Of a DNA stretch of 11,251 nt, positions 6,249 through 10,849 are shown piece by piece. Positions within the stretch are counted from its first letter, which is position 1; every line of letters starts with the position of its first letter. A program made the translations under genes and the position numbers. This DNA comes from Chloroflexota bacterium (lineage in GTDB: Bacteria; Chloroflexota; Anaerolineae; B4-G1; DUEL01). The stretch spans positions 1 through 11,251 of the forward strand of contig JAGHZG010000020.1 of assembly GCA_017743275.1 (NCBI GenBank). Direction: 5' to 3'. A model generated the notes under the pieces. It did not search any database. It was not told the origin of the DNA and worked only from the letters and a program-made list of their open reading frames with translations.

Positions 6249-6962
6249 CTAACTCCGGGCGACCATTTTGGAGAGCACCGAGCCAGCGATATGGCTCAGT
6301 TTCCCGAAGGGGAAGTAGACCATCAGCAACTGGACCAGGGCGAAGTGCCAGATGAACGCGGGCCCCGTGCTTTCCGGAACCGGCTGCCAGCGGAAGGAAG
6401 CCAGTCCGGCGAAGAAACGGTGCAGTTCCTCCACCTCCACCGTCCGCAAGAGGCGCATGTGGAACCCGGTCAGGGCGATGCCAATGAGGAGAAAGAGGAC
6501 GAAGAAGTCCTCCGGGACGGAGAGCCACTTGACCGCGCCGCTCAACCGTCGGGCCAGCAGGTAGAAGAGGGGAATCGTGAAGAGGGTCCCGGCAATGGTC
6601 CCGGCGATGGCGGAGAAGGCGTGCTGCTGCTCCTTGCCCCAGTTCAGCAGTTTCCAGAGGAAATAGAAGTCGGTGAAGGCCCGGATGTGACCGACCAGGA
6701 CGAAGAGGAGCCCCAGGTGCATGATAAAACCACCAGCCCAGAGGAGCGGATTGACCCGTAGCAACCCCTTCAGGGTAAACATATCCACCAGCGCGTCCGC
6801 CAGCCGTCCCAGGCGGTTCTGGGGGCGGGGGAAGAGGGAGAGATGGGCCGGAGCCGGCCTTTTTTGCCACCACAGGTAGACCCGGTATGCCAGCCCGCCG
6901 AAGAAGACGACGACAGCGATGTAGGGGGTGATGTAGTAGAACAGAAAGGCCAGGGTTGTCAT
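6249..6962 (-). CDS. NarI/DsrM-type di-heme membrane cytochrome b
   Basis: This 237-residue integral membrane protein has about five hydrophobic segments (near residues 8-31, 72-95, 115-138, 150-170 and 200-220). Histidines H82 and H92 are 10 residues apart and H206 and H224 are 18 apart. These are the spacings of the four heme b ligands in E. coli NarI, so a di-heme quinone-reactive cytochrome is well supported. Family knowledge: NarI/DsrM subunits move electrons between menaquinol and a cytoplasmic partner, here probably the adjacent CCG protein. I chose the ATG at 6962 because AGGAGG lies 5 nt before it; a GTG six bases upstream would overlap the Shine-Dalgarno site. The gene is shorter than DsrM, which usually carries extra helices. 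The stop codon overlaps the next gene's ribosome-binding site, indicating coupled translation. Confidence 0.85.
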   Translation of the reverse strand: MTTLAFLFYYITPYIAVVVFFGGLAYRVYLWWQKRPAPAHLSLFPRPQNRLGRLADALVDMFTLKGLLRVNPLLWAGGFIMHLGLLFVLVGHIRAFTDFYFLWKLLNWGKEQQHAFSAIAGTIAGTLFTIPLFYLLARRLSGAVKWLSVPEDFFVLFLLIGIALTGFHMRLLRTVEVEELHRFFAGLASFRWQPVPESTGPAFIWHFALVQLLMVYFPFGKLSHIAGSVLSKMVARS

Positions 6963-6979
6963 AGACACCTCCTGGGGCT

Positions 6980-7007
6980 GTAGGACAACTGCGAGCAGTT
7001 GTCCTAC
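6980..7007. repeat. 12-bp perfect palindrome spanning the tusA stop codon
   Basis: A perfect 12-bp stem (6980-6991 with 6996-7007) with loop CGAG covers the tusA stop codon. It ends 6 bp before the Shine-Dalgarno sequence of the cytochrome b gene. There is no T-run, so read-through is expected. In the mRNA it could set a processing or stability boundary or influence initiation of the next gene. Its sharp, perfect symmetry suggests a dispersed REP-like element. Confidence 0.7.
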
Positions 7008-7243
7008 TTCACGCGGCGGATGTAGAACTTGAAAACACCCTCGCCCTTCTCCATCCCCAGCAGTTCGTTGCCGGTGCTCTTACACCAGGCCTGAACGTCG
7101 GCGACGGAGCCGGGGTCGGTAGCCAACACTTCCAGAACGCCGCCCACGGAGACGTTCTTGATCTCCTGGCTGGTCTTGACCACCGGCATGGGGCATTTCA
7201 GCCCACGGGCGTCCAGGGTCTTTTCGGGGGTGTATTCTGCCAT
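7004..7243 (-). CDS. tusA: TusA/SirA-family sulfur carrier protein
   Basis: This 79-residue protein has the TusA fold signature DARGLKCPMPV, with the sulfur-carrying cysteine at C17 followed by P18 and P20. Family members carry persulfide sulfur on this cysteine between desulfurases, rhodaneses and acceptors in the cytoplasm, for example in tRNA thiolation, molybdenum cofactor work or dissimilatory sulfur metabolism. I chose the ATG at 7243 because AGGAGG lies 6 nt upstream; an upstream in-frame codon would add nine residues without such a site. It is first in an operon with a DsrM-like cytochrome and a DsrK-like CCG protein. No DsrE, rhodanese or desulfurase is visible in the window. A second cysteine (C59, AWCKS) is not part of the family motif. 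Confidence 0.9.
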   Translation of the reverse strand: MAEYTPEKTLDARGLKCPMPVVKTSQEIKNVSVGGVLEVLATDPGSVADVQAWCKSTGNELLGMEKGEGVFKFYIRRVK

Positions 7244-7263
7244 TTTGTGCCTCCTGTTTTTGA

Positions 7264-7292
7264 GATTCACCGCAATCTTTGCGCCCTGTCAA
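7264..7292 (-). promoter_or_regulatory. Possible tusA-operon promoter in the palindrome arm
   Basis: On the minus strand, a perfect TTGACA (7292-7287) lies at the outer end of the left palindrome arm, 44 bp upstream of the tusA start. At 17-bp spacing the -10 candidate is TGAATC, a poor match, so only the -35 element is convincing. The corresponding place on the right arm carries the same TTGACA facing the gene on the other side. Confidence 0.3.
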
Positions 7293-7450
7293 GTCTCTTA
7301 AAATCGTACCGGGGGCAGAAAGCCCAAAGTCCTGAAAAACCGTACCTCCAGAGTGCCGTAACGGCTGAGACTGGCTGCGCTCACCGGCTTTTATTAACCC
7401 CTCACCCCCCTTGATCCCCCCTCTCCCCTTGGCCTTACGGCCAGGGGAGA
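7285..7450. repeat. Left part of a split 292-bp palindrome (foldback or MITE-like element)
   Basis: 7285-7392 is the inverted copy of 9043-9149, with about eight differences over 108 positions. Inside it, 7403-7434 is the inverted counterpart of 7439-7450 plus 9024-9042, with only three substitutions and one extra base. The centre is the loop TTAC at 7435-7438. With the IS110 element removed (7451-9023), the two parts form one continuous imperfect palindrome of about 292 bp. The left arm has about 11 extra bases near 7393-7402. No open frame is supported inside, so it looks like a noncoding foldback or MITE-like element. I see no clear target-site duplication at its outer ends. Confidence 0.8.
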
Positions 7451-7565
7451 TGCTCTCAAAATTGTCAAGGAAGCGATGGGGGAGAGGTGTAGGAGGGGAG
7501 CGAAAAAGTGACAATACTTCCCCTCCCCCTCTTCTGAGAGGGTTTGCATATGTTTAAAATTGAGC

Positions 7566-7595
7566 GACGGCGAAGAGCGCTTTCTTCGCTCCGTC
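7566..7595 (-). terminator. Hairpin over the transposase stop codon
   Basis: Five pairs (7566-7570 with 7591-7595) and five more (7571-7575 with 7584-7588) form a stem with a 2-nt bulge and an 8-nt loop, covering most of the transposase stop codon. On the minus strand it is followed by GCTCAATTTTAAAC, a weak U-tract. It may be a terminator or an mRNA 3' structure of the element. Confidence 0.45.
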
Positions 7596-8607
7596 ACACC
7601 CGGGCGATGTGCCGCCGGAGGTCAAACGGCTCTCCACAGCAGTACACTGCCCAGGCCCAGACCACGATTTTGCGTGCCGCCGCCACCAGGGCAACCATAT
7701 GGGGCTTCCCCCGCTGGCGGAGCCGACGGTAAAATCGGGCCAGAGGACTACTTGTCCCCTTCAACCCGCCCCGAGCGGCCGCTACCAGGAGGGAACGCCA
7801 GCGGGTATCCCCCTGCTTGCTAATGCGCCCTCGGGGAGGCCGCTTCCCGCTCTGGTGGATGCGGGGGTCCAAACCCAGATAGGCGACCAACCCTTTGGCA
7901 TCCCGACGGCCCAACTGCGCCCAGCGGATCAGCAAAGCCACCAGTGCGTGGACCGTCTTCTCCCCCACTCCGGGCACGCTGAGCAGACGGCGTCGTAGCC
8001 CGTCCAGGTCGGGAAAATCCCGGTACAGACGGCCGATATGCTTCTTCGTCCGCCGGATCAGCCCTTCCAGGAACTGAATATGTTCCTGCAAATCCCGGAC
8101 TTCGGGGGCATCAGGGGAGATCCCCTGGCTCAGGTAGGCCTCCAGGCGGTTCTGCTCCCGCTGTCGTTCTACCTCCAGTTCCCGCCATCGCTCGGCCAGG
8201 CGGAGGAGGTGACCTGCGGGTTCTGGCCAGGGCTTCCAGGGGTGGAGGTCCTGGCGATGCTCGGCCCCGTAGAGGGCCAGCATCTGGCTATCCAGAGGGT
8301 CGGTCTTGGCCCGGTATCCTCGCCCCTGCTGCCATTGGCGTACCTGCCGGGGGTTGGGGTACAGGATGCACTGGCGATGTTCGTACAGCCAGTACATCAA
8401 GGGTCGTTCATACCCTCCGCAGGGTTCAATAACCCAGATCACCTCCTCGCCCCGGCTCTGCTGCTGCACTTGCCGGAAAAGGGTTTCAAACTTTTCCAGC
8501 CGATTGGGGAAGGAGCCCAGGTACTGGGGAGAAGAGTCCTGGCCTGCCCGGAAGAGAGCCACGGCCAGGGTATCCCGACTGCCGTCCACACCGATATAAA
8601 GGCTCAT
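7594..8607 (-). CDS. IS110-family transposase (DEDD RuvC-like plus Tnp C-terminal domain)
   Basis: This 337-residue protein is the recombinase of the element. The N-terminal RuvC-like domain shows the DEDD residues D8 (GVDGS), E61 (WVIEPCG), D103 and D106 (KTDPLD). A helix-hairpin-helix segment LLSVPGVGEKTVHAL lies at 208-222. The C-terminal Tnp domain has the GRISKQGD motif at 260-267, where S263 is the likely catalytic serine. Length and motifs are complete, so it may be active. The ATG at 8607 has AGGAGG six bases upstream. Family knowledge: IS110 recombinases act on circular double-stranded intermediates, and in the IS110 group they are guided by a bridge RNA encoded upstream of the gene. 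A structured segment occupies that place here. Confidence 0.95.
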   Translation of the reverse strand: MSLYIGVDGSRDTLAVALFRAGQDSSPQYLGSFPNRLEKFETLFRQVQQQSRGEEVIWVIEPCGGYERPLMYWLYEHRQCILYPNPRQVRQWQQGRGYRAKTDPLDSQMLALYGAEHRQDLHPWKPWPEPAGHLLRLAERWRELEVERQREQNRLEAYLSQGISPDAPEVRDLQEHIQFLEGLIRRTKKHIGRLYRDFPDLDGLRRRLLSVPGVGEKTVHALVALLIRWAQLGRRDAKGLVAYLGLDPRIHQSGKRPPRGRISKQGDTRWRSLLVAAARGGLKGTSSPLARFYRRLRQRGKPHMVALVAAARKIVVWAWAVYCCGEPFDLRRHIARV

Positions 8608-8639
8608 CCTCCACCTCCTCGGTATAGGTGTAGAGGCCC

Positions 8640-8819
8640 ACTATTCCCGGGGGATGAGGGTTCAGGTATGGTCTGGTATACGGGCTGCGAGCCCTGGATG
8701 CTCTCCATACTGGTTTTTCCTGCCCTCCTCATCTCGGATTCGGGCTTGGGAGCCCTGAGGGGGAAGCAGTCTCCCGGGAAAGGGGCTGTCCCCCTTCCGC
8801 AGTGACGGTCAGAAGGGGC
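8640..8819 (-). ncRNA. Putative IS110 bridge RNA, about 180 nt
   Basis: Upstream of the transposase on the same strand, the sequence folds in the order known for IS621-type bridge RNAs. First comes a 5' stem-loop (GGAAGGGG with CCCCUUUCC, near 8777-8798). Next is a loop around the apical hairpin GGGCU-CCCA-AGCCC (8742-8755), possibly target-binding. Last is a well-formed internal loop: stem GUAUGG/CCAUAC (8666-8671 with 8705-8710), ten unpaired bases on each side (8672-8681 and 8695-8704), and apical hairpin GGGCU-CGC-AGCCC (8682-8694). The ten-base sides match the two element ends, as expected for a donor-binding loop. The 5' end is inferred from a promoter-like site at 8826-8831; the 3' end is approximate. 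No expression evidence is available. Confidence 0.6.
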
Positions 8820-8825
8820 AAGGAG

Positions 8826-8848
8826 AATATACCATATTTTGGTTAAAG
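8826..8848 (-). promoter_or_regulatory. Possible promoter of the bridge RNA (extended -10)
   Basis: On the minus strand, TGGTATATT forms an extended -10 (TATATT at 8831-8826). At 16-bp spacing the -35 would be TTGTTC, a weak match. A start near 8819 would give a transcript covering the whole structured segment. The local sequence is AT-rich inside a very GC-rich element, which supports a promoter role. Confidence 0.4.
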
Positions 8849-8852
8849 AACA

Positions 8853-9020
8853 AGGCCGGGGGCCGGGGACCTATCTCCCCGGAGGCTCAGGGCCTTGAGG
8901 GGGGAACGGCCTTCCCGGCCCCAACCCAATGATACCAGGCCGGGGGCCGGGGACCTATCTCCCCGGAGGCTCAGGGCCTTGAGGGGGGAACGGCCTTCCC
9001 GGCCCCAACCCAATGATACC
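8853..9020. repeat. Exact 84-bp tandem duplication at the left end of the IS
   Basis: 8853-8936 and 8937-9020 are identical. Each unit contains a perfect 7-bp hairpin (first copy 8863-8869 with 8876-8882, loop CCTATC) and a GGGAA/TTCCC stem. Each unit ends in the sequence next to the element terminus (GATACCAG). The outer copy has the full ATACCAGA that matches the RNA; the inner one reads ATACCAGG. Two copies without spacers exclude a CRISPR array. The perfect identity points to a recent duplication. An open frame across both copies is not coding. Confidence 0.95.
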
Positions 9021-9023
9021 AGA

Positions 9024-9149
9024 GGGGGGACAAAGTGGGGTGAAAAGCCGGTGAGCGCAGAAAGTGCCAGCCGTTACGGCACTCCGGAGGTACGGTTTTT
9101 CAGGACTTTGGGCTTCTACCCCCGGTACGATTTTAAAAGACTTGACAGG
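9024..9149. repeat. Right part of the split 292-bp palindrome
   Basis: 9043-9149 is the inverted copy of 7285-7392. 9024-9042 continues the GC-rich inner stem that pairs with 7403-7421. Short hairpins lie inside the arm (for example AGTGCC with GGCACT near 9063-9083). The outer end carries TTGACA pointing toward the DUF885 gene. Confidence 0.8.
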
Positions 9150-9171
9150 TTTGTTAATTATTAATTATTTT
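9142..9171 (+). promoter_or_regulatory. Possible promoter of the DUF885 gene
   Basis: TTGACA at 9142-9147, at the outer end of the right palindrome arm, is followed by a strongly AT-rich stretch. The best -10 candidates are TTATTT (9165-9170, 17-bp spacing) and TATTTT (9166-9171). The start codon is about 40 bp further on. Only the -35 element is a good match. Confidence 0.4.
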
Positions 9172-9208
9172 GTGTCTTCGCGGTAAACATTCATCCAGGA
9201 GGCACTCA

Positions 9209-10849
9209 ATGACCACCGAGACTCAATTCTACCGCCGGGCCGAAGAATGGCTCTATCGGGCGGCCGAACGGAACCCGGTGATGGCCACCCAGATCGGCAT
9301 CCACCGGTACGATGACCGTCTGGGCGACCGGACGCTGGCGGCCCTGGAAGAGGAACAGCAGGAAGTCCGGGCCGCGCTGGCGGAACTGCGGGCGATGGAC
9401 CTTTCCGATTTCCGTCTGGATGCCCGCATTGACCACACCCTCCTCACCCACATCCTGGAATCGTTCGTCCGCTCCTACGAAAAGATACAGGTCCACCGCC
9501 GCCACCCGGGGGGCTACCTGGAGGAGCCCCTGGGGGGTGTCTTCCTGCTCATTGTTCGGGATTTCGCCCCGCTGCCGGAGCGGCTGCGGTCGGCCCTGGG
9601 ACGGGTCCGGGAGACCCCGCGCGTCCTGCGGGAGGCGATGGTAAACATTATTCCGGAGCAGGTGCCGCGGGTGTGGGCCGAGATTGCCCTGGAGCAGGCC
9701 CGCCAGGCCCCCGGCCTCTTCATCGGCCTGCTGCCCGCCATCGCCGCCAGCGCCGCCCCGGACCTCCAGGCCGACCTGGCCCAGGCCGGTCAGGCCGCCG
9801 CGCAGGCCGTCCAGGAGTACGCGTCCTTCATAGAGAACGACGTCCTCCCCCGCGCCGCCGGCGACTTCGCCGCCGGCCGGGCCCTCTTTGACGAGATGCT
9901 GCGGGAGGAGCATATGGTGGACTACGACGCCGACCAGTTGCTGCAGGTCGGTTGGGAGCAGTTCCACCTCACCCGCCGTCAGATGGAAGAGGTCGCCCGG
10001 CAGATAGACCCCAACCGGTCGGTGCAGGACCTGCTGGAGGAGGCCAAGGCCGACCACCCGACGGCGGAGGGACTGCTGGACGCCTACCGGGAGGCGATGG
10101 CGGCCGTCCGCCAGTACGTGATAGACCATGAAATCGCCACCATCCCGGAGGGAGAAGTCCTGCAGATTGTGGAAACCCCTCCCTACCTGCGGCCCATCAT
10201 CCCCTACGCGGCCTACATGCCGCCTGGCATCCTGGAGGAACGGCAGGAGGGTATCTTCCTGGTCACTCCCGTGGACCCCAGTGCCCCGCCGGAGGTCCAG
10301 GAGCAGACGCTGCGGGGGCACAGTTGGGCCAAACTGCCGGTGACGGCGCTCCACGAGGCCTACCCGGGCCACCACCTCCAACTGGTCTGGGCCAACCGCC
10401 AGGAGACCATCCCCCGGCGGATGGGCACGTTCCTGGCGACGCTCTTCATCGAAGGCTGGGCCTTCTACTGCGAAGAATTGATGGAGCAACTGGGCTACAT
10501 CGCCGGGCCGACCCAGCGCCTGGGCCGCCTCGCCGACCAGTTGTGGCGGGCCGCCCGCATCATCATAGACGTCTCCCTCCACACGCGCGGGATGTTGGTG
10601 GACGAGGCGGTGGACTTCCTGGTCCGGGAGTGTCAGTTGGAGCCGGCCAACGCGCTGGCAGAAGTCCGCCGGTACACCGCCAGCCCCACCCAGCCCCAGT
10701 CCTACCTGATGGGCAAACTGGCCATCCTGGAACTGGTGGCGGACTATCGGCGCGCCCATCCGGAGGCTTCCATGCGCCAGATTCACGACGCCATCCTGGG
10801 ATGCGGCAGCCTCCCGCCCCGCCTGATGCGCCAGCGGCTGCTGGGGTAA
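9209..10849 (+). CDS. DUF885-family protein (putative metallopeptidase-like)
   Basis: This 546-residue protein matches the DUF885 family in length and in its signature HEAYPGHHLQ at 382-391. A downstream EGWAFYCEELM segment (415-425) is a second family hallmark. The HE...HH arrangement with a following glutamate resembles zinc peptidase motifs, and some members are annotated as peptidases, but the substrate is not known to me. No signal peptide is apparent, so a cytoplasmic location is expected. I chose the ATG at 9209 because AGGAGG lies 6 nt upstream; the frame itself extends 13 codons further up. The gene follows the palindrome arm and is followed after 3 nt by a glycosyltransferase gene, suggesting an operon, though the pair has no obvious shared task. 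Confidence 0.9.
   Translation: MTTETQFYRRAEEWLYRAAERNPVMATQIGIHRYDDRLGDRTLAALEEEQQEVRAALAELRAMDLSDFRLDARIDHTLLTHILESFVRSYEKIQVHRRHPGGYLEEPLGGVFLLIVRDFAPLPERLRSALGRVRETPRVLREAMVNIIPEQVPRVWAEIALEQARQAPGLFIGLLPAIAASAAPDLQADLAQAGQAAAQAVQEYASFIENDVLPRAAGDFAAGRALFDEMLREEHMVDYDADQLLQVGWEQFHLTRRQMEEVARQIDPNRSVQDLLEEAKADHPTAEGLLDAYREAMAAVRQYVIDHEIATIPEGEVLQIVETPPYLRPIIPYAAYMPPGILEERQEGIFLVTPVDPSAPPEVQEQTLRGHSWAKLPVTALHEAYPGHHLQLVWANRQETIPRRMGTFLATLFIEGWAFYCEELMEQLGYIAGPTQRLGRLADQLWRAARIIIDVSLHTRGMLVDEAVDFLVRECQLEPANALAEVRRYTASPTQPQSYLMGKLAILELVADYRRAHPEASMRQIHDAILGCGSLPPRLMRQRLLG

Follow-up and report, generated by a model that had tools for sequence, protein, structure and literature searches.

The stretch of DNA analyzed here, referred to as the window (11,251 nt from a Chloroflexota bacterium), contains a recombinase gene of the IS110 type, which is preceded by a candidate RNA loop whose two sides resemble the two ends of a putative mobile element. 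This locus raises the question whether insertion of the element is directed by a bridge RNA encoded within it and, if so, how many target-type loops this RNA carries. Bridge RNAs are programmable guides of DNA recombination that have been described with one target-binding and one donor-binding loop. The coordinates of all features are listed in Table 1.

Table 1. Coordinates of the IS110 element, its predicted loops and the host repeat around it.
Feature	Position	Strand	Remarks
IS110 element with one CT core copy, 1573 bp	7450..9022	-	donor matches at both ends; core deduced from L014, L017, L044 and L002
Second CT core copy, at right end of element	7448..7449	-	
CT core at left end of element	9021..9022	-	
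IS110 recombinase gene, 337 aa	7594..8607	-	PF01548 and PF02371
Left donor AGAGCAT (element right end)	7450..7456	-	
Right donor GGTAT (element left end)	9016..9020	-	
Predicted donor-binding loop	8666..8710	-	left guide 8704-8697, right guide 8679-8673, next base 8672
Predicted target-binding loop 1, outer copy	8945..9004	-	left guide UCCCCCCUC 8989-8981, right guide GGGGAG 8964-8959
Predicted target-binding loop 1, inner copy	8861..8920	-	from tandem repeat
Putative second target-type loop	8720..8769	-	left guide CCCCCUC 8763-8757, right guide region CCGAG 8737-8733
84-bp tandem repeat, two copies, 99% identical	8850..9017		
TTGACA, -35-like	7463..7468	-	
TATCAT, -10-like	9013..9018	-	
Left target flank TCCCCCCT	9023..9030	-	
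Right target flank CCCC, next to core	7444..7447	-	
Host palindrome holding the target, left arm	7285..7424	+	inverted repeats I1-I3
Host palindrome, right arm	9021..9149	+	inverted repeats I1-I3
CCCCCCTCTCCCC in uninterrupted arm, mirror copy of inferred target	7416..7428	+	

The IS110 element and its donor-binding loop

The recombinase of the window matched IS621, whose structure is known, with an E value of 1.4e-25 and combines a RuvC-like DEDD domain with a Tnp domain carrying a conserved serine, the combination by which the IS110 family is recognized. Its residues D8, E61, D103, D106 and S253, which occupy the positions of the IS621 DEDD motif and serine in the alignment, were invariant in 32 aligned proteins. 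For IS621, the catalytic residues are given as D11, E60, D102, D105 and S241 (PMC11208158), the chain numbering of the alignment being offset by two. In a tree of 25 recombinases (L025 was left out of the 26 proteins), the clade of the window element formed a single branch with a support of 100/100. Single proteins used as queries found no relatives in viral contigs and none in plasmids or phages (E up to 1e-30); with the alignment as query, nine viral-contig loci were obtained that were 27-39% identical. For the clade, 80 proteins were counted at E up to 1e-30.

At the two ends of the element in the window, TCT is shared (minus strand, region of 7449-7448 and 9022-9021), so that TC and CT are indistinguishable as core from the window alone. 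The ends of four related elements (L014, L017, L002 and L044) have only CT in common. The core is therefore CT, and not TC as proposed in the initial annotation, and this sets the limits of the element with a single core. The distance from the core to the start codon is 415 bp at the left end, the right end measures 144 bp, and the loops described below lie upstream of the gene. This is the organization of the IS110 group, with the bridge RNA 5' of the gene and the left end longer than the right end, and differs from that of the IS1111 group, in which the bridge RNA lies 3' of the gene in a long right end. We regard the window element as a bona fide IS110 bridge-RNA element.

The element is located between genes for a TusA-like protein (7004-7270) and a DUF885 protein (9170-10849), and a gene for a nitrate-reductase-gamma-like protein (6249-6968) is also found in the flank. 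A single copy of it was found in its own genome bin (76.5% complete). The same genome harbors a distant IS110 element on contig C271 (L002, 33% identical) with an ordinary left end containing one target loop, whose guides ACGGUUGC and AGGGGAG correspond to the ends and the flank of that element. In a related Anaerolineae bin, a broken or chimeric IS110 gene was observed (L015, 1-960); its middle part is 66% identical to the window recombinase and its start is unmatched.

The candidate donor loop reads GUAUGG-AGAGCAUCCA-GGGCU-CGC-AGCCC-GUAUACCAGA-CCAUAC on the minus strand (8710-8666). The geometry noted initially, with a 6-bp outer stem, 10 nt on each side and a 5-bp apical stem, can be read directly from the sequence, and the loop was also part of the minimum free energy (MFE) structure of 8620-8830, in which five outer pairs are drawn next to it. 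The z-score of this fold was just -1.74, and 11 of 200 shuffled sequences folded equally well, so that the fold by itself proves little. The element ends read GAGAGCATC at 7457-7449 and TCTGGTAT at 9023-9016 on the minus strand. The left side of the loop, AGAGCAUC, is identical to the right end of the element at 7456-7449, and the right side, AUACCAG, is complementary to CTGGTAT at 9022-9016. The proposed agreement of the loop sides with both ends was hence confirmed; the eighth left-end base that had been included (9023) belongs to the flank. The predicted circle junction AGAGCATCTGGTAT was retained and would be divided as AGAGCAT-CT-GGTAT.

The initial annotation had named loops that fail to covary with the ends of their own elements as evidence against its reading. 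In 24 related loci (28 to 100% identical), we compared the sequence 5' of the gene with the 260 bases 3' of it, blindly and disregarding structure, and recorded the longest shared stretch whose last base is the C of a CT. Duplicates and fragments were omitted from this set (L016, L032, L034, L036 and L015), as were L003-L013, further pieces of the genome to which L002 also belongs; L044 and L045 were added after this test. Matches of at least 8 nt were obtained for 16 of the 24 own pairings compared to 69 of 552 swapped pairings, the latter count being raised by donors common to related elements, and none of 10,000 permutations reached the observed sum. Two of the 16 best hits were not donor matches, since the upstream partner lay within the coding region in L014 and in a flanking repeat in L029; direct inspection of L014 revealed a donor match of 7/7. 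The eight loci with shorter matches were L017, L018, L019, L020, L025, L027, L028 and L039.

The donors vary among the elements (AGAGCAT, ACGGTTG, ACAGTAT, ACGGTAT and others), and the loops track them. When eight elements were inspected one by one, the left guide equaled the left donor in six or seven of seven bases, and the right guide paired with CT and the following five bases in every case. This covariation, seen both in the 24 loci and in the eight tabulated elements, supports the assignment as the donor-binding loop of an IS110 bridge RNA with the layout known from IS621, its guides spanning the core and agreeing with both ends once these are joined. The base after the right donor guide, which corresponds to the handshake position of IS621 (PMC11208158), can pair with the last flank base in five of the eight elements (window, L017, L018, L020 and L044) and cannot do so in L014, L045 and L002. 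A search of Rfam gave no match at the gathering score, and we took two sub-threshold hits in 8600-9040 for chance.

Loop 1, the insertion site and the predicted extent of the RNA

The target loops had been missed alongside the correctly located donor loop. A loop termed loop 1, situated in the outer left end, matches the insertion site: its left guide UCCCCCCUC is identical to the left flank plus core over 9 nt, and its right guide GGGGAG is complementary to CTCCCC over 6 nt. This match was equaled by 4 of 1000 dinucleotide shuffles. The hairpin at 9004-8945, with the guides in its internal loop, was present in the MFE structure of a left end reduced to a single repeat unit.

Guides and targets were compared in 16 of 18 elements with a readable left end, as L030 and L040 failed the string match; the shuffle test of the loops covered the seven clade members with a readable left end, that of L019 being lost. 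Loop 1 matched its own target with 9+4 nt in L017, 10+4 nt in L018, 9+7 nt in L020 and 9+4 nt in L044, and in none of these four elements was this reached in 1000 shuffles. It was weak in two of the seven members: in L014, the match to the own target comprised just 4+7 nt (74/1000 shuffles) and the guides fitted the window target better (16 versus 11), and in L045 no paired match to the own target was found. The closing helix of loop 1 was of Watson-Crick type in 4 of 8 own combinations and in 5 of 44 swapped ones, which is less clear than for the second loop described below.

The insertion site lies within a long host palindrome. No empty copy that could be read throughout was found in the genome bin, the remaining arm copies being cut short at or near contig ends, and we therefore used the uninterrupted mirror arm for comparison. 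It contains CCCCCCTCTCCCC, which is exactly the site predicted by loop 1. This 13-mer target occurs at three sites in the genome bin, and a reversed control pattern occurs at one. The arm copies at or near contig ends of the bin were L004, L005, L007 and L008, and for this reason the palindrome probably fragments the assembly. Several other elements of the clade (L017 and the L018-L045 loci) were seen by eye to be located beside GCCC-CT-AC in palindrome-like repeats of the form GGGGCG...CGCCCC, and the clade may favor such repeats as sites.

Loop 1 falls within an 84-bp tandem repeat and is therefore present twice in the window; the repeat is also the reason why the left end occurs twice. It duplicates loop 1, the right donor and the -10-like box, with the unit boundary at CT, the core dinucleotide. 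L014, whose protein is 84% identical, has one left end. The repeat could be the result of slippage, a product of the recombinase or an assembly artefact. Its interpretation as a recombinase footprint, based on the boundary at CT, was abandoned, because two common bases are weak evidence and neither guide set fits the site by eye. In L019, no left end of the CTGGTAT type was found upstream of loop 1, and an inverted copy of the left-guide sequence (GGGGCGATGCATTGC) is located nearby. The right end of L045 reads AGAGAAT-GGGCAC and lacks the CT core, as if two bases had been lost or the core were different.

For IS621, a promoter formed at the circle junction was described (PMC11208160). When the ends of the window element are joined, TTGACA and TATCAT come to lie 17 bp apart, and this spacing was found in 8 of 8 elements, six of which have a complete TTGACA as first box. 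The arrangement TTGACA-17-TATCAT is that of a putative circle-junction promoter; in the inserted form, a promoter scan of 7400-9100 identified no site. Since the -10-like box and the first target loop both lie far out in the left end (9018-8945), an RNA of roughly 365 nt would be expected, starting near 9006, or of about 280 nt when the tandem repeat is disregarded. The RNA of about 180 nt starting near 8819 that had been predicted initially is not supported, as the -10-like box and loop 1 are located further out.

A second target-type loop in the clade

Between loop 1 and the donor loop, we found a second loop with a plan like that of loop 1, in which the left side ends with C-A before the apical hairpin and the right side ends with AG. 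This segment, 8720-8769, had first been taken for the target loop itself, an assignment that was dropped since loop 1 matches far better. Counterparts of the second loop, picked by eye, exist in 8 of 8 clade members (L001, L014, L017, L018, L019, L020, L044 and L045), and the order of loop 1, second loop and donor loop recurs in all of them; the modules were chosen by eye and their presence in the sequences was then checked.

The fit of the second loop to the insertion site differs between members. In the window, its left guide covers 7 nt of the own target and its right guide just 3 nt in register, and 55 of 1000 shuffles did as well, using an out-of-register right guide. The second loop was in register with the own target in L018 (7+4 nt), L020 (8+6 nt) and L044 (8+4 nt), and such matches were reached in 6, 1 and 0 of 1000 shuffles, respectively. 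In these three elements, both loop 1 and the second loop match the own target; the targets of L018 and L044 are similar and their second loops fit either one equally, so that these two cases are not independent. For L014, 87 of 1000 shuffles did as well, and for L017 and L045 no paired match of the second loop to the own target was found. If the loss of CT in L045 is supposed, its second-loop right guide covers 8 nt of the right flank compared to 5 nt for loop 1; the left end of L045 contains another 7-nt hit outside the second loop.

The closing helix of the second loop, located at a fixed distance from the right guide, was of Watson-Crick type in 6 of 8 members and in 0 of 50 swaps with a different tetramer. 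Tested singly with wobble pairs allowed, the helix failed to reach significance in the majority of members (147 to 1631 of 2000 shuffles), and the folding z-scores of the modules ranged from -3.1 to +0.3. The distance from the core to the start codon was 260-319 nt in the six other clade members whose left end could be read; the figure of 260 nt comes from L020, for which the start codon is uncertain. The corresponding distance is 331 in the window without the repeat and 180-255 nt in nine outgroup elements, of which five have one guide pair and four have none. These shorter left ends and guide-pair counts in nine elements are the basis on which the second loop is regarded as absent outside the clade. 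In place of the IS621-type set of one target and one donor loop, the window has loop 1 twice and a second target-type loop that presumably binds target DNA.

Taking these data together, we consider it probable, with good confidence, that the element is inserted by means of a bridge RNA from its left end comprising loop 1, the clade-wide second loop and the donor loop, under a junction promoter. The excision circle would join TTGACA of the right end to TATCAT of the left end and thereby create the promoter, from which the RNA would be made as one molecule. In this RNA, target-binding loop 1 (here in two tandem copies) would be followed by the second target-type loop and the donor-binding loop. 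The donor loop would pair with AGAGCAT-CT-GGTAT at the circle junction and loop 1 with CCCCCCT-CT-CCCC, located in one of the two arms of the host palindrome. Guided by this RNA, the recombinase would insert the element as is known for IS621, with the exchange taking place at the CT core. The second loop appears to be an addition of the clade that probably still binds target DNA and functions in targeting; the benefit would be redundancy, the use of variant sites or a tether of greater length linking the target loops to the donor loop. With the extra loop in its middle, the RNA might be long enough to bridge the target-donor distance or might address a second site variant, or the loop might serve purely as a scaffold.

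This last possibility deserves serious attention, and although we lean somewhat against it, it is quite conceivable that the second loop arose by duplication of loop 1 and is now degenerating, its remaining role being that of an RNA scaffold for the recombinase, which is apparently also the role of the IS621 5' stem-loop. Loop 1 and the donor loop alone would then act as guides. The tandem repeat of the window demonstrates that loop duplication happens, and the matches of the second loop are shorter than those of loop 1 in L018, L020, L044 and the window and absent in L017. The rarity of the L018, L020 and L044 matches among shuffles speaks against such decay, and L045, with its longer second-loop right guide, argues in the same direction if CT was lost there, subject to the other 7-nt hit in its left end. 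An unlikely alternative is that two RNAs are formed from the left end, one from the junction with all loops and one of about 180 nt from an internal promoter with one target loop and the donor loop. An AT-rich stretch between the loops, noticed by eye at about 8847-8822 in the window and in several relatives, would suit such a promoter, but the scan of the inserted form identified none, and the best-fitting target guides are those of loop 1, outside the shorter RNA.

Finally, the matches might have arisen by chance from the C-rich sequence of the region and the many repeats of the left end. The target and the guides of the window are indeed C-runs, the reversed control pattern occurs once in the genome and the z-score of the fold is small. 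This reading is largely disfavored, and we regard it as very improbable, by the permutation result for the donors, by the loop-1 matches of four relatives with other targets that no shuffle reached, and by the constant spacing of the junction promoter.

Comparison with known systems

The window element resembles IS621 in its recombinase family and catalytic residues, in the CT core, which is also that of IS621 (PMC11208160, PMC11208158), and in the donor layout of 7+CT+5. As far as can be judged from sequence, it also shares with IS621 a bridge RNA in the left end, a junction promoter and a target in a palindromic repeat. The bridge RNA of IS621 has a length of 177 nt and consists of a 5' stem-loop, one target loop and one donor loop (PMC11208160). 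In the window, the 5' position is instead occupied by the target loop (twice), followed by the second target-type loop and the donor loop, and the left end is longer than that of IS621. One target and one donor loop are described in PMC11208160, in which six diverse elements are shown, and its text mentions neither a third or additional loop nor two targets. Nor did searches of open-licence papers bring up a description of several target loops. Multiplied target-type loops, unlike the single one of IS621, are probably new.

ISEc21 and the seekRNAs of IS1111-type elements are similar in that the target is chosen with the help of an RNA encoded in the long non-coding end and short RNAs derive from a longer form, but in the IS1111 type the RNA lies downstream of the gene and subterminal inverted repeats are present (PMC11187229), whereas the RNA of the window element lies upstream. 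In the structure of IS621, target and donor loops are about 80 angstrom apart, which suggests the participation of two RNA molecules (PMC11208158). If the reading proposed here is true, the clade with two target-type loops would offer a natural multi-target RNA, with which one could examine directly if separate RNA molecules are required to supply the target and the donor loop.

The TIGR-Tas systems also have repeated units with two short guides each, and tigRNAs have been related to IS110 bridge RNAs, the bridge RNA being described as a single two-stem unit (PMC12045711). TIGR arrays differ by their Tas proteins and many units (PMC12045711) from the window element, which has one IS110 recombinase and three to four units; the protein adjacent to these units contains both IS110 domains, in contrast to a Tas protein with a Nop domain and without IS110 recombinase next to a long array. 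We tentatively propose, as an idea that might slightly sooner prove wrong than right, that this Anaerolineae IS110 clade makes bridge RNAs with two working tandem target loops before the donor loop, so that one RNA addresses two site variants or tethers target and donor in cis. The 84-bp duplication, which adds a further loop, would then be a possible route of guide-unit multiplication as in TIGR arrays, and the clade would serve as a model for this process.
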